From: Hyphomicrobiaceae bacterium
GTDB taxonomy: Bacteria > Pseudomonadota > Alphaproteobacteria > Rhizobiales > Hyphomicrobiaceae
Assembly (NCBI GenBank): GCA_020442225.1
Contig: JAGRKR010000228.1
Span: 8,196 to 13,292, forward strand
Direction: 5' to 3'
DNA length: 5,097 nt
Translations under genes and position numbers: made by a program
The notes under the pieces: model-generated
Databases searched by the model: none
Seen by the model: only the letters and a program-made list of their open reading frames with translations
What the model was told of the DNA's origin: nothing
Shown here: positions 28 through 5,097 of the stretch, piece after piece
How positions within the stretch are numbered: the stretch's first letter is position 1
Layout: the number at the start of each line of letters is the position of its first letter

Positions 28-2814
28 TCAGCCGCCGAGCACTGACCTGATGCGCTGGCGGAACCGCTGGGCGACCTCGGCGAACCCCGCATCGCTCGGA
101 TGCAGCTCGTCGTACCAGCGCTCCCGCACGGGGCCGACCGCGCCGAGACAATCGACGAAATGGAAATTGCCGGCATAGTCGGCCTCGAACGCGCGCAGGC
201 GGGCCGAGAACCGCTCGATGATCTCGGCCGTGATGGCGCGCTGCAGCTCCGTATCCTTGATGCCGCATCCCATCATCGGCAGGCCGAGCCAGCGGCCGCT
301 CTCGCCGTCCGGCCAGCCGCGATCGTAGCCGTGCGCGAAGATCTTCAGCTTGGGATCTCGGCGCAGGATGTCCTCGATCAGCACTTTGTAGAAGTAGATG
401 ACCTGGCCGATCGCCTGCTCCAGCGGCTCTTTCAAGCACGCCCGCGGGTCGTCGCCGGGGCGATAGGCCCTCAGATAGAGATTGAGCGCGCCCTCCCCCA
501 ACAGGTCGTTGCCGCCGCCGCTCAGGAGGACGCCGTCCGGCCGGATCTGCTCGATCGCCTTGAGCACGTCGCCGCTGGACGCCATGTGGCGCATCGTATC
601 GCCGGCGCCGGCGAGGGAGTAGATGGCGTAATCGTCGCTGAGATGCCGGATCGTGTCCTTGACGAAGATCGGATACTGGAACCAGGAATCCCCCTCGGCG
701 ACGAAACGGAGGCCCTTCCAGCCGCCCCGCTGCACCTTGCGCCAGTACATGGCCTGCCGGCGTGCTCGAATGATGGGATTGATCGCCGCCAGGGCGACGA
801 TCAGGGCCGATTCCGGCTCGGCCCGCCCATCCGTCTCGGCACCATCGAGCAGATCGCGACGCTGAATGTGCTGGACCGTGCCGGGATCGTGGCTCGGCAC
901 GATGCGCGGCGAAAACGCGTCCGAGCCGGGGTCCAGCATGACATGGCCGGCGAGCAATTCCTCGGGGATGTCGAGATCGTTCAACTTGGCCGCGAGCTCG
1001 CCCGGCGTCAGGGCCTCGCGCGCGGGCTGCTCGCCGGCGGCGGATGGGGCTGCGGCTGCCACGGCTGGCCCCCTGACCCCGACGGCATACTTGCTCCTGA
1101 TGGACTGGATGATGGACGCGAGCGCCACGCCCTCGTTGGCCGGCTCGTTCATGAAGCCGCTGCGACCGCCGAGATTGCGCAGCCCGCCCTTCTGCGGGGG
1201 GCCGGCATGGTGCATGGCGATGACCTGCCAGTCGTTGTCGTCGAACACGGGGCTGCCCGAGTTGCCGGGCATGGTCGGCGTCCTGTAGCGCAGGTAGATG
1301 TCGCCGATCCGCTCCTTGCGCTTGTAGCCGACGTCGAGCACCTCGGTATCGTTGAGGGAGATGCACAGCTCCTCCCGCGCGGGATGCCCGATGATGAAGG
1401 CGTGGCGCAGCGCCATGTCGTCCAGACGGTCGGCGACCAGGTCGGGGGCGAGTGACAGCGGCCGCAGATGCTCGATGCGCGGCGAGAGCCGAACCAGCGC
1501 ATAATCGAGCGCCTCGAACGGCGACTGCATCAGGACCTCGGTGAGGCGATAGCGGCTGCGGCTCTCGACATCCTCCTGGAAGGTCACGTAGGCCCGCTCG
1601 ATGTCGATGCCCGGGGCGGCCGGCGGATCGCCGACGACGTGGGCGTTGGTGAGCAACAGCAGTTCCTCGCCGAGCGACGGAGCGAGGTCGCCGCCGCGCA
1701 CGAGAAAGCCGGTGCCGACCGGAAGCCCCGTGCCGATATTGACGATGCGCCCGACGGCGGCCGCTGCCGTCAGCCCCTGCTTCAGCCAGGACAGACGCCG
1801 CGGCGCCGCGTTGCCGAGCACGGCCTGCGGCACCACGTCGTCCATTTCCGCAAACGACAGCATGGCCTGCGTCTCGGACTTGCTCAGCTCGAGACGGCCG
1901 CCACGCATCTCGCCGAGGCGGGCATTGAGCGCCGCGACGAGTTGCCCCTTGGCATCGCGTCCTGCCGTGATGCCCCAGACCTGGTTGAGCTGACGTAGGC
2001 TGCCCTCCAGCGGGAAAGCCGTTTTGACCCCATCCTCTCGATGGACATATCGTCCATACCAGTGAGCCGCCTTCTCGAGCAGCTCCCGCGCCGACTCGTG
2101 ACGGCCCTCCCGCGCCTCGGCATCGGCGAGCGCCACATAGCATTCGCCCGCCACCGCCGCGTTCCAATGCTCGTCGCCACCGGCCTTGCCGCCCTGCAGA
2201 TGGGCGAGCAGATGGTGCACGATCGGGACCGCGTCGACGCCGGATGGAAGCGTGACGCCGTCGCGGCGCGCCCGCGCGATCAGGGCGACCAGATTGATGC
2301 CGAGCCAGCCGACCTTGTCATCCGCGGCCGCGAGGTAGGCCGACGCGTACCTGGAGATCGCCTGGCGCAGAGCCGACTCGATCGCCGGCGGGCGCGGACG
2401 GTGGCGATATTCGACGTAGATCTGTTTGTGGGCGCGCCCGAGCAGCCCCAGCGCTTCGATGTGCGCCTCCTGCTCGCTGGACGTCGTCATGGCGATGCGC
2501 TCGAGGACCGGCACGGCCGCCACCGGCTGCCCGGAGTCGATCAGCGCCTGGGCCTGATCGCGCGCCACCAGGCCGTCGTCCACGCCGAGGCGCTGGATGT
2601 GATCTGCGACCCTGGCGAGGTGGTCGAAGGCGCGCGCATCCTTGAGCGACTTGAGCACGCCTGCGTAGTCCTCCCTCCGGATCGCGCGGCTCATGCGGGC
2701 GAGGGCGTCAAGGAAACGTTCGATGGGACCTGCCAGCGCCTCGAGCTGGAGCTGTCCCGCCAGCGCCTCGATGTCACGCGCGGCCGACGCGACCTCCTTG
2801 CACACTTCCCCCAT
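28..2814 (-). CDS. TPR/TRAFs-binding-like, trypsin-like serine protease and SGNH hydrolase three-module protein
   Basis: Complete 928-residue protein, probably cytoplasmic: no signal peptide or membrane segment is visible. Residues about 86-308 are helical and TPR-like; the W-L-G-I-N stretch at 169-173 and the repeat near 215-256 resemble the TRAFs-binding (DUF4071-type) domain, a protein-docking module. Residues about 352-577 form a trypsin/V8-like protease: GTGF at 367-370, His392 in TNAHVV, Asp437 in LDYALV and Ser519 in GNSGSP, so the triad is intact. After an Ala-rich linker and an unassigned stretch (about 578-694), residues 695-928 form an SGNH hydrolase: GDSWFQYP with Ser710, a Gly near 736-738, GGND at 767-770, and Asp902/His905 in DELHP. 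It probably cleaves an ester or related bond; the substrate is unknown. The ATG at 2812-2814 is chosen because a strong ribosome binding site precedes it and no in-frame ATG lies between it and the upstream stop at 2902-2904. It lies 132 bases after an SMC-like ATPase on the same strand. Domain calls are firm; a conflict-system effector role is inferred. Confidence 0.93.
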   Translation of the reverse strand: MGEVCKEVASAARDIEALAGQLQLEALAGPIERFLDALARMSRAIRREDYAGVLKSLKDARAFDHLARVADHIQRLGVDDGLVARDQAQALIDSGQPVAAVPVLERIAMTTSSEQEAHIEALGLLGRAHKQIYVEYRHRPRPPAIESALRQAISRYASAYLAAADDKVGWLGINLVALIARARRDGVTLPSGVDAVPIVHHLLAHLQGGKAGGDEHWNAAVAGECYVALADAEAREGRHESARELLEKAAHWYGRYVHREDGVKTAFPLEGSLRQLNQVWGITAGRDAKGQLVAALNARLGEMRGGRLELSKSETQAMLSFAEMDDVVPQAVLGNAAPRRLSWLKQGLTAAAAVGRIVNIGTGLPVGTGFLVRGGDLAPSLGEELLLLTNAHVVGDPPAAPGIDIERAYVTFQEDVESRSRYRLTEVLMQSPFEALDYALVRLSPRIEHLRPLSLAPDLVADRLDDMALRHAFIIGHPAREELCISLNDTEVLDVGYKRKERIGDIYLRYRTPTMPGNSGSPVFDDNDWQVIAMHHAGPPQKGGLRNLGGRSGFMNEPANEGVALASIIQSIRSKYAVGVRGPAVAAAAPSAAGEQPAREALTPGELAAKLNDLDIPEELLAGHVMLDPGSDAFSPRIVPSHDPGTVQHIQRRDLLDGAETDGRAEPESALIVALAAINPIIRARRQAMYWRKVQRGGWKGLRFVAEGDSWFQYPIFVKDTIRHLSDDYAIYSLAGAGDTMRHMASSGDVLKAIEQIRPDGVLLSGGGNDLLGEGALNLYLRAYRPGDDPRACLKEPLEQAIGQVIYFYKVLIEDILRRDPKLKIFAHGYDRGWPDGESGRWLGLPMMGCGIKDTELQRAITAEIIERFSARLRAFEADYAGNFHFVDCLGAVGPVRERWYDELHPSDAGFAEVAQRFRQRIRSVLGG

Positions 2815-2946: not shown

Positions 2947-5097
2947 TCATCCCTCCGTCCAGGGCGTCAGGGCGAGGCGATGGCCGGCGATATCCGCAAA
3001 GGCCCGTTCCCGGCAGGTCAGGACCAGCACCTGATGCTGCCGTGCCGCCTCCGCGAGCGCCGCGAACATCCCGGCGATGCGCCGGTCGTCGGCATAGACC
3101 AGGGGATCGTCGAGGACGACGGGCGCGGCGTGGCCATGCTCGGCCAGGTAGCGCGCATAGCCAAGGCGCACCAGGATCGAGATCTGCTCGCGGGTTCCCA
3201 TGCTGACCACGTCGAGCGGCTCGGCCCGTCCCTCGCGCACCAGCGCGGTCGCCTCGGCAGCCGCGCCGAGTTCGAGCGTCCCGTCGCCGAAAATGTGCGT
3301 GAGATAGGGGCGCGCCGAGGCGATGATCGGCGTCAGGAAGCGGTCGCGGCTCTCGCGCTCCACCGCCTCGAAGGTCCGCCGCAGCAGGTCGAGGGCGGCT
3401 GCCTCCTGCGCGAAGCCCGCCACCTGGGCAGCCAGCGTGCGCACACTCTGCGTCAGCGCTTCGAGATCGGCGCGCCGGCCGCTCTCGCGCCGGTTGCCGA
3501 GTGCGCCTTCAAGCTGATTGATCTCCCGCTCCAGCTCCTTGAGCCGCCCGTCGGCCCCTTGCCGGGCCGCACGCGCCCGTGCGTGCTCCGCCTCGATCTC
3601 GCGCCGGCGCGCGGCATCGATCACCTGGCTGCGAACCGCCCGGTGCTCGCGCTCGGCGGCGGCATGGGCCGCGACTTGGTCGGCCAGAGCCTTGGTGAGC
3701 TCAGCCACCCGCGACTGCCGTGCCTCCGGTGCGCCGAGCCGCGCTTCGAGCTGCAGGATCTCGTCGCCGACGCGCTGGCGCTGCTCGCGCGCGCCATTCA
3801 GCGCCGCCTCGGCCGCGCGGACGCCCTCGCGCGCACGCTCGCACGCGGCCTGCCTCGAAGCGAGGTCCCGTTCGGCCGCCGTCACCGCAGCCTCCAGCAC
3901 ATCCGCACTGCCGGACGCCGGCTCGCCGGGCGCAAGCCCCGCGAACTGGGAAACCTCGGCCGTCAGCGCCGCATGCTCGGCTTCGAGAGCCTCGAGGCCC
4001 TGCGGCGCCAGAGCAGCGACGGTCGCCCGCGCCCGCTCGCGCTCGCCCTCCATGTCGCGGCGTGCGTCGAGCCGGGCCTGGGCCTCGCCGAGCGAGGTGA
4101 CGGTCATGCGCGCCAGCATGTCGTCGAGCGCCTTGCGCTCACCATCGCGCGTGTGGCGGAGGTCGGCGAGATCGCTGCCGCCGCCCGGCGCGACGCTGAT
4201 CGTGCCGACCCCGAGGATCTCCAGACGGATCGGCGTGTCGGGCCGCAGCTCTTCTCCGTCATCGAGGGGCCGACCAGCCAGATTGATCCTGCCACCGGCG
4301 CCGGGCACGTAGGTGACGGTGACGCGTGGCGCGGCGGCCGACAGGCGTCCCTCGCTCACGGCCAGCGCGCCGGCCAGCGACCGCGCCCGCTCGACGCGCT
4401 CCGCCGTCACCGGCAGCGCGGCCAGCGCAGCGTCGAGCCGCGCCTGCTCCTGCCCCGCCTGCCGAACCAGACCGAGCCGGTGCTCCAGCGCCTGCTGGCG
4501 TGTGCGTACCGCGTGCGCCTGCACGAGTCGGGCGTGCGCGTCACGGTGCGCCCGGCCCTCATCGAGCCGTCGCCGCTGTGCCTCGTGCGCCTCGCTGGCC
4601 GTCTCGATCTGCACGCGCGCGGCGGTTGCCGCCTCGTCGAGACGGCCGATCTCGCCATCGAGCGCCGCGGCCTGAGTGTGCCTCTTCGCGAGGTCGGCCA
4701 TGTCGCGCTCGAGATACTCCAGCGCCTTGCGTGCGGCGTCGCGCTTGAGGCTCTCGGCCTCAAGCCGCGCCGCGGCTGCCGCCTCCTGCTGCTCGGCCGC
4801 CTGCGCCACCGCCAGCCCCTGCTCCGCGACCTCAACCGCCGCCTCCAGCTCGCCGCGGCGTTCGGGCGAGAACAGCGCCTCGCGCTGCGCGATGCACGTG
4901 GCGAGCCGCTCGATCTCCTGGCGTTCGGCCTCGGCCTGCGCCTGCGCCGCCGCGAGCGCCAGCTCTGCCGCGGCGAGATCCTTGATGGCCCGTTCGCGCC
5001 GGCTGCCGGCCGGCGGCTTGTCGGCCCCGCGACCGCCCGTGAGTTTCTTGAGGTCACCCTCCACAAGCGCCCTGACGGCTCTGGCGCGGTCGCCGCC
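2947..5097 (-). CDS. SMC/Rad50-like coiled-coil ATPase, YhaN-like, 5'-truncated by window edge
   Basis: 716 residues are visible, counted from the right edge. The frame stays open to the edge, and a GTG at 5062-5064 reads as an internal Val in a natural-looking L-V-E-G-D-L run, so the true start lies outside. Residues about 25-240 and 310-585 are Ala/Glu/Arg-rich heptad-type coiled coil. Between them, about 258-306, is a short Gly/Pro-rich, probably beta-stranded insert where Rad50/SbcC would carry a zinc hook; there is no CxxC. Residues about 586-716 are the C-terminal ATPase lobe: ABC-signature-like SMGTREQ at 632-638, Walker B PVVLDD at 659-664 followed by a D-loop-like ADD, and VLTCRER near 692-698 at the switch position, with Cys-Arg where many ABC ATPases have His. 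The Walker A lobe is off-window. Such ATPases act on DNA ends or structure, often with an SbcD-like phosphoesterase (as in YhaO/YhaN); that partner cannot be seen here. It could be a repair protein or the sensor of a defence system. The family is firm; the role is inferred. Confidence 0.92.
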   Translation of the reverse strand, partial: GGDRARAVRALVEGDLKKLTGGRGADKPPAGSRRERAIKDLAAAELALAAAQAQAEAERQEIERLATCIAQREALFSPERRGELEAAVEVAEQGLAVAQAAEQQEAAAAARLEAESLKRDAARKALEYLERDMADLAKRHTQAAALDGEIGRLDEAATAARVQIETASEAHEAQRRRLDEGRAHRDAHARLVQAHAVRTRQQALEHRLGLVRQAGQEQARLDAALAALPVTAERVERARSLAGALAVSEGRLSAAAPRVTVTYVPGAGGRINLAGRPLDDGEELRPDTPIRLEILGVGTISVAPGGGSDLADLRHTRDGERKALDDMLARMTVTSLGEAQARLDARRDMEGERERARATVAALAPQGLEALEAEHAALTAEVSQFAGLAPGEPASGSADVLEAAVTAAERDLASRQAACERAREGVRAAEAALNGAREQRQRVGDEILQLEARLGAPEARQSRVAELTKALADQVAAHAAAEREHRAVRSQVIDAARRREIEAEHARARAARQGADGRLKELEREINQLEGALGNRRESGRRADLEALTQSVRTLAAQVAGFAQEAAALDLLRRTFEAVERESRDRFLTPIIASARPYLTHIFGDGTLELGAAAEATALVREGRAEPLDVVSMGTREQISILVRLGYARYLAEHGHAAPVVLDDPLVYADDRRIAGMFAALAEAARQHQVLVLTCRERAFADIAGHRLALTPWTEG

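Follow-up and report, generated by a model that had tools for sequence, protein, structure and literature searches.

A bacterial polypeptide joining a TPR-S module, a trypsin-fold protease and an SGNH-fold hydrolase, with hints of a switchable cell-killing device

RESULTS

TPR-S, trypsin-fold and SGNH-fold domains on one chain

The window analyzed here is a stretch of 5097 nt from contig JAGRKR010000228.1 of a Hyphomicrobiaceae bacterium, and the gene under study encodes a protein (hereafter the window protein) that was confirmed to unite a TPR-S protein, a trypsin-fold protease and an SGNH-fold hydrolase in one chain. The comparison with relatives gives roughly even odds (a probability of about 0.5) that it is a cell-killing module of the conflict-system type, switchable and built on a single chain, in which a signal would act on TPR-S, TPR-S on the protease, and the SGNH domain would be freed or activated.

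The Pfam search showed that TPR-S (PF20308; residues 63–178, E 5.7e-12, 46.5 bits against a curated cut-off of 27.6), Trypsin_2 (PF13365; residues 367–534, E 3.2e-19) and Lipase_GDSL_2 (PF13472; residues 734–910, E 1.9e-10) each matched above the curated cut-off, with residue numbers shifted by +1 as the query lacked Met1. This bears out an earlier note on the same DNA, which had proposed three domains on one polypeptide, both active sites intact and no visible export signal. All eight residues that it named (H392, D437 and S519 of the protease; S710, G738, N769, D902 and H905 of the hydrolase) are present, and no hydrophobic segment was seen by hydropathy, with no signal-peptide program applied (19-residue Kyte–Doolittle means peaked at 1.27 overall and at 0.66 within the first 60 residues). 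A GGGAGG-type stretch lies, by eye, immediately 5′ of the ATG of the open reading frame (ORF), and an identical protein, P0002, is recorded as "MAG: trypsin-like peptidase domain-containing protein [Hyphomicrobiaceae bacterium]".

The SGNH part carries the Ser, Gly, Asn and His blocks on an SGNH fold, as judged by Pfam, sequence and structure comparison together, and esterase activity is predicted for it. The protease fold is structurally nearest to HtrA/Deg. No PDZ family matched the window protein in Pfam at E ≤ 1, and because it has no PDZ domain it is not an HtrA protease, the protease fold alone being held in common. The structure model came from an 83-row alignment, as a 12-sequence version was poor outside the TPR part. 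The TPR-S family (PF20308) is reportedly the one treated by Burroughs and Aravind in J Bacteriol in 2020. The tie to ASK kinases, which the earlier note had suggested for the TPR module, was recovered with a profile of the TPR-S region searched against PDB sequences (E ≤ 0.1), where ASK1/MAP3K5 was the sole natural protein (5ulm, E 0.0022; 8qgy, E 0.016) and the third match was a designed TPR, though the MAP3K TRAFs-binding family PF13281 itself gave no match in the window protein at E ≤ 1. PF13281 is present in precomputed annotation of many TPR-S-trypsin homologs.

The loci compared were found by two peptide patterns, one containing GDSWF and the other GRA-x-KQ; of 440 relatives they represent the best 80, not a random sample, L005–L007 are close sisters, and genes were called with a simple caller of our own. 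Eleven homologs (P0003–P0011, P0013, P0015) share the full layout at 34–42% identity and keep both catalytic sets, except that P0015 is truncated ahead of D902 and H905. When the 12 full-length rows are aligned, the protease triad, S710, G738 and N769 are invariant, and D902 and H905 are kept in at least 90% of rows. In the 83-row alignment, the protease His, Asp and Ser are kept in all 46 rows having a residue there, and S710, G738 and N769 in 51/51, a count that for S710 is partly circular, as 33 of the 51 rows come from loci of the scan that used GDSWF, while the other 18 (12 proteins from the protein search and 6 later loci) are independent of that pattern. The 16 rows without H905, and one of the two without D902, are proteins without an SGNH domain; in the other, L108, Asn replaces D902. 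Charged and aromatic columns of TPR-S (R, K, Q, W, Y) are also conserved across relatives. The GRxxK motif is invariant in the 12-row set, which was collected without the GRA-x-KQ pattern, while its conservation in the 80 loci is partly circular, that pattern having been the second of the scan. A separate TPR-S gene in L024 does not have the motif.

Table 1. Features of the window, with residue numbers of the window protein; pLDDT, predicted local distance difference test
Feature	Position (nt)	Strand	Remarks
Whole ORF, 928 residues	28..2814	-	Uninterrupted; ATG 2814-2812, stop 30-28
TPR array, residues 1-351	1762..2814	-	TPR-S PF20308 core at residues 63-178 (nt 2628-2281)
Trypsin/HtrA-fold serine protease, residues 336-578	1081..1809	-	H392 1641-1639, D437 1506-1504, S519 1260-1258
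Linker 1, residues 579-600	1015..1080	-	Ala/Pro-rich; pLDDT <50 at 580-597
EXT, residues 601-648	871..1014	-	Own profile and alignment of the SGNH family
Linker 2, residues 649-673	796..870	-	pLDDT <50
SGNH hydrolase fold, residues 699-928	31..720	-	S710 687-685, G738 603-601, N769 510-508
SGNH D902 and H905	within 31..720	-	D902 111-109, H905 102-100
SMC/Rad50/YhaN-like ATPase	2947..5097	-	Cut by window end; 716 residues visible; weak family matches

Neighbors of the TPR-S-trypsin genes

A TPR-S-trypsin protein is encoded in 25 of the 80 loci, and two of these, L002 and L003, hold full three-domain fusions. Of the 25, 19 have an ester hydrolase next to or fused with the TPR-S-trypsin protein: an alpha/beta-hydrolase lies directly upstream (0–59 bp) in 14, SGNH occurs in 4 and patatin in 2, with L024 carrying both of the latter. 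A lysozyme-type gene was found in 13 of the 25, which is GH108 in 11 and a large lysozyme-related protein beside L003 and L057, and one or the other kind of gene, ester hydrolase or lysozyme-type, is present in 22. A TIR gene is located within 6 kb in 9/25, as counted with a profile built from 8 sequences of five of these same loci. The other 55 loci were retrieved by SGNH similarity rather than as a random control. Along their whole length they lack these alpha/beta-hydrolases, GH108 lysozymes and patatins altogether, and they contain a single TIR gene (L079) and a single large lysozyme-related gene (L038). It is locus comparison that shows the recurrent pairing of this type of protease with ester hydrolases, and of the esterase family described below with proteases.

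In the neighborhoods tested, Pfam confirmed TIR, SLOG, nSTAND1, NucA, patatin and GH108 genes and second TPR-S genes. The conflict-system context suggested by the earlier note was found around many relatives (TIR, nSTAND1, patatin, lysozyme, NucA, a second TPR-S gene), and these are not consistently placed in housekeeping loci, while the TPR region, as described above, matches both TPR-S and ASK1. In a split version from Zoogloea (L019) the SGNH gene ends 27 bp upstream of the TPR-S-trypsin gene, a trypsin-NucA gene follows, and a TIR gene lies 3.2 kb off. Fusions are seen as well in precomputed domain annotation, where TPR-S-trypsin is joined to a TIR domain (P0032), to the NAD-binding domain PF13450 (P0030, P0057) or to a GH108-type domain (P0033). 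PADLOC run on the relatives returned RT-Protease_XI, caspase and TIR-effector models, nacht (6e-15, in the trypsin-NucA gene of L019) and LmuA (1e-6, L004); these matches reflect domains held in common, not systems.

Two further features of these surroundings were observed. A single protein with TIR, protein kinase and globin parts is encoded near two different TPR-S-trypsin loci (L010:14305-16185(-) and L011:5708-7537(+)), and a kinase in TPR-S surroundings recalls ASK. Additionally, an unannotated domain of ∼250 residues forms a separate gene near TPR-S-trypsin or SGNH-trypsin genes (L024:8402-9178(-), L031:3641-4402(-) and L170:2075-2833(+)) and also the C-terminal part of SGNH-caspase-M15 proteins (for example, ∼200 residues of L034:9974-13354), which links both networks; its L024 copy had no Pfam match.

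The SGNH family and its protease partners

A search for the SGNH family covered 248 genomes from the family to which G105 belongs; G105 is the Roseovarius genome that holds L036, and it is included in the count. The SGNH family is present there in 15 copies, of which five are fused to trypsin, four to caspase and two to Amidase_3 and M15, three stand beside a divergent trypsin gene, and one (L119, with a trypsin/NucA-like frame ∼4 kb away) could not be assigned. A trypsin or caspase partner, fused or adjacent, was therefore counted for 12/15, including L141 with its weak trypsin match (E 2.3e-4) and the chosen center genome G105 itself. A draw across the phylum gave 20 matches in 398 genomes, with partners assigned in part and no rate derived from them. 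Elsewhere, trypsin-NucA genes stand near SGNH-family members in L019 and L038, and in L062 the SGNH gene belongs to a same-strand run that starts with an EAD1-trypsin gene.

In a tree of the SGNH domain (57 chosen rows of 133 segments, built quickly) the TPR-S fusions all fall to one side of a branch with a Shimodaira–Hasegawa-like approximate likelihood ratio test (SH-aLRT) value of 88, and the caspase fusions need two changes; 14 of the 15 caspase rows were assigned through Pfam, matched by the row itself or at the same place, and L048 by resemblance, and the labels "no protease" were given by eye. In a tree of the trypsin domain, equally quick and covering 45 of 47 chosen rows, as two trypsin-NucA rows were missed by the profile, a branch with SH-aLRT 99 and a long-branch warning divides the TPR-S trypsins from those of SGNH-first fusions. 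The domain order is reversed between TPR-S-trypsin-SGNH proteins and SGNH-first trypsin fusions. Because the branches are separate and the orders opposite, the SGNH esterase and trypsin probably came together on at least two occasions.

Other partners of the SGNH family were noted in passing. A large gene stands beside SGNH-caspase genes (L177:8216-10432(-) and relatives in 36 fetched loci, some overlapping); it had no Pfam match in L177, and it is called papain-like through homology to L112, where a Peptidase_C1 match (E 0.001) just below the Pfam cut-off is the sole Pfam basis of the label. An animal haem peroxidase domain (L166:5586-7538, E 1.1e-21) is encoded between an SGNH-trypsin gene and a papain-like gene. 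In P0046, EXT-SGNH is part of a protein with precomputed PF00498 and PF12770 (FHA and CHAT), which adds another partner of protease type. A divergent SGNH subfamily with a GDSWFNLP block and EXT is located beside an alpha/beta-hydrolase gene in L154:6250-8310(-) and L155:5162-7205(+), where no protease was seen nearby by eye.

The EXT segment ahead of the SGNH domain

Between its two low-confidence linkers, the window protein carries a segment of ∼50 residues that was absent from the account of the earlier note and that matches an N-terminal extension (EXT) common in its SGNH family (the profile match in P0001 has E 2e-8). The extension was found in 54/59 SGNH ORFs of L001–L080, most of which were used to train the profile, and in 7/15 members of the independent draw from the G105 family. 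As it is missing from the other eight, EXT is not a universal pro-segment, and its profile had no match in P0010, P0011, P0013 and P0015. Linker 1 varies in length and sequence across the alignment of full-length homologs. The possibility that EXT is an independent, EAD-like adaptor was considered and rejected: of seven EXT matches across the class of G107 (385 genomes), six have SGNH behind them and one (L109, E 2e-4) is apparently spurious. On this comparison, EXT is treated as part of the SGNH family.

Distribution of relatives and the upstream gene

The TPR-S-trypsin loci come from Pseudomonadota, Bacteroidota and Actinomycetota. In the family of G001, 10 of 103 genomes have a homolog, and two of these hold the full fusion. 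Among 72,556 plasmid records, 68 carry partial relatives, all of which span less than 80% of the query, and a scan of genome contigs with the single protein gave no match. No relative was found in 50,697 phage records or in a pattern-limited scan of viral contigs, and a viral origin was rejected on these grounds. No literature description of this architecture was recognized among the matches listed, at the level of titles and starts of abstracts and with thin coverage of subscription journals.

The gene upstream of the one studied encodes an SMC/YhaN-like ATPase. It has weak similarity to LmuB (E 5e-5, PADLOC), and a Lamassu-like partnership was considered and judged improbable: relatives of the ATPase are common (52/103 genomes of the family of G001), and in G001, G002 and G003 they lie on a different contig from the TPR-S gene. 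For these two reasons the adjacency is probably not functional, and the ATPase is probably not part of the system.

DISCUSSION

A proposed sequence of events

The architecture of the window protein hints at a switchable self-destruct device and not at a household enzyme. TPR-S is predicted to recognize an NAD-derived ligand, and Pfam names it a putative sensor. In the proposed working, a signal of stress or invasion, most likely a nucleotide that TIR or comparable enzymes produce from NAD, would bind the TPR-S array, which would then release or orient the trypsin/HtrA-fold protease. The protease, as has precedent elsewhere, could cut the flexible linkers around EXT, in its own or a neighboring copy, and/or a partner protein, so that the SGNH domain would be freed or ungated. 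The esterase might then attack membrane lipids or another envelope ester. In relatives, a separate alpha/beta-hydrolase, patatin and lysozyme take this place, so that self-lysis or arrested growth would be the outcome shared by all. The ligand, the cleavage, the substrate and the role in defense are putative.

The earlier note had favored a different arrangement, with the TPR module as a docking domain and the two hydrolases as independent warheads, so that the protein would be brought to its target, the protease would degrade cell proteins, and the SGNH domain would attack esters at the same time. The ASK1-type module and the two intact hydrolase sites in that proposal stand. Docking is less well supported, as Pfam describes TPR-S as a sensor, and the columns conserved across relatives would be more in keeping with a binding site for a ligand than with a variable docking surface. 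Independence has also lost ground: because the same esterase family occurs with unrelated proteases (two trypsin groups and caspase) and the same TPR-S-trypsin with unrelated ester hydrolases, an arrangement of trigger and payload fits better, and the protease looks more like the trigger than like a second warhead. We regard two warheads with a docking TPR as unlikely, though the best placed of the alternatives.

The exchange of payloads among unrelated folds, and of proteases among unrelated families, suggests a chain of signal, trigger and payload. A wider proposal, which we put forward tentatively and hold less probable than the switchable module itself, is that protease-gated ester hydrolases are recurrently assembled self-lysis effectors, in parallel to protease-gated nucleases. 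Trypsins and caspases, perhaps also papain-like proteases, would each have been combined with the same SGNH esterase family, in one case behind an ASK1-type TPR-S sensor, which would unite sensing, triggering and killing on one chain. EXT, where present, could be a pro-segment that holds the esterase off until it is cut. Our confidence in this proposal was lowered slightly because EXT was found in 7/15 members of the family draw.

Several observations weigh against the switchable cell-killing module. Among them are the choice of the 55 comparison loci and the origin of the TIR profile given above, the absence of EXT from 8/15 members of the G105 family, and the quick, long-branched trees. The 5-kb window shows no TIR, lysozyme or known defense gene, the sole visible neighbor being the common ATPase, and PADLOC gave nothing stronger than weak RT-Protease_XI matches for the window protein. 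Two full-length relatives have flanks that could be read, and in one of them, L002, genes for lysozyme, TIR and alpha/beta-hydrolase are all missing within 6 kb and the neighbors are mostly of the housekeeping type by eye. The divergent neighbor of L003 is of lysozyme type by homology to the L057 gene alone (E 8e-119); the L057 gene has a Phage_lysozyme match above the cut-off, and the L003 gene's own Pesticin match (E 0.01) is below it. No envelope hydrolase was found in L001, L008 and L047, of which L008 has several TIR genes and L047 is a short contig. Solo SGNH genes with no protease nearby by eye occur in cyanobacteria (L064, L072), in Chromatiaceae (L066, L073) and in L110, L111 and L115, and because such copies exist the SGNH enzyme can work without a protease. 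SGNH substrates are also very diverse, and a lipid substrate is a guess. Finally, by analogy with Caulobacter LypABC, the SGNH domain need not be the payload, because in the trypsin-endonuclease protein LypC, by architecture the nearest fusion of a trypsin with an enzyme that has been tested, the peptidase is required for lysis and the fused endonuclease residues are dispensable (PMC13236601).

The same Caulobacter system points to lysis control for the release of gene-transfer agents (GTAs) or prophages, built from the same parts with no role in phage defense. LypC is needed for GTA-linked lysis (PMC13236601), trypsin-NucA genes stand near network members L019 and L038, and GH108 occurs in 11 of the 25 TPR-S-trypsin loci. 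However, no phage or GTA genes were recognized by eye in the inspected neighborhoods, the phage records and the pattern-limited scan of viral contigs held no relative, and the window has no CARD or NLR match, so we consider this explanation improbable, and somewhat more so than that of two warheads. An exported or injected antibacterial toxin, of the polymorphic, type VI secretion system or extracellular contractile injection system type, whose peptidoglycan and lipid hydrolases would hit other cells, could draw on the peptidoglycan enzymes common in the network (GH108, phage-type lysozyme, Amidase_3, M15), but hydropathy gave no sign of a signal peptide or of a membrane segment, genes for secretion or immunity were not recognized by eye in the inspected neighborhoods, and the TPR-S and TIR context points to internal sensing, which makes it quite improbable. 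Least probable of all, by a little, is housekeeping protein quality control of the HtrA type with an accidental esterase fusion, for which the HtrA/Deg-like fold and the housekeeping surroundings, by eye, of L002 and some solo SGNH genes would speak, and against which stand the missing PDZ domain, the lack of an export signal by hydropathy, the patchy occurrence in 10/103 genomes of one family and the conflict-type neighbors of many relatives.

If the switchable module proves right, proteolytic activation in bacterial immunity would be widened from nucleases and gasdermins to ester hydrolases, and a compact death switch in bacteria would be linked to the TRAFs-binding module of ASK1. Two point mutants would then allow the sensing, the triggering by the protease and the payload to be told apart within one chain. 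The most interesting point is the possible role of the SGNH esterase as a protease-gated payload, with EXT, where present, as its putative pro-segment. The module would also supply a rule for finding more such systems, which is to seek a hydrolase family that keeps swapping its protease partner.

Comparison with known systems

The likeness to ASK1/MAP3K5 lies in the resemblance of the TPR array to the TRAFs-binding region, while ASK1 has a kinase where the window protein has a protease and an esterase. Components of the ASK signalosome have been traced to bacterial conflict systems (Kaur et al. 2021, PMC8195603). The hydrolase shares the fold and the S-G-N-D-H blocks of GDSL/SGNH esterases such as EstL5 (8ik1), PAF acetylhydrolase (1fxw) and phospholipase A1 (4hyq), and its family differs from them in the GDSWFQYP-type block, the frequent presence of EXT and the frequent fusion to proteases.

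In several immune systems trypsin-like and caspase-like proteases cut and activate a pronuclease (Tuck et al., PMC12799240). In the nuclease-protease pairs of Hachiman, AVAST, Lamassu and canu loci described there, a protease of the trypsin or caspase family has been acquired repeatedly with one hydrolase family, which is the pattern seen here. There, however, the protease activates an MBL-fold nuclease from a separate gene (PMC12799240), while here SGNH is on the same chain and its activation is putative. The window protein is not a HamM-type pair, because the upstream gene, in its 716 visible residues, is an ATPase and not an MBL-fold pronuclease. LypABC and the CARD-NLR systems are similar by architecture, in that the trypsin-endonuclease protein LypC is required for programmed lysis, and phospholipases or endonucleases stand in for gasdermin in other CARD-NLR variants (PMC13236601). 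The sensor here is TPR-S, and neither protein of the window has a CARD or NLR ATPase match in Pfam.

A further comparison is with the NucA-trypsin "System 3" of Kaur et al. (2020, PMC7159879). SGNH occurs 0 times in the main text of that paper, and the window protein has neither NucA (PF01223) nor EAD1, with 5 kb visible. The alphaproteobacterial bias, the trypsin-like peptidase core, the lysozyme-type partners and the proposed proteolytic deployment are all similar, and SGNH-family members do stand near trypsin-NucA genes (L019, L038) and an EAD1-trypsin gene (L062). The paper also predicts proteolytic release of effectors in NucA-trypsin systems and states that the caspases of VMAP systems always have an alpha/beta-hydrolase neighbor (PMC7159879). 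The window protein may work like the NucA-trypsin conflict systems and may belong near them.

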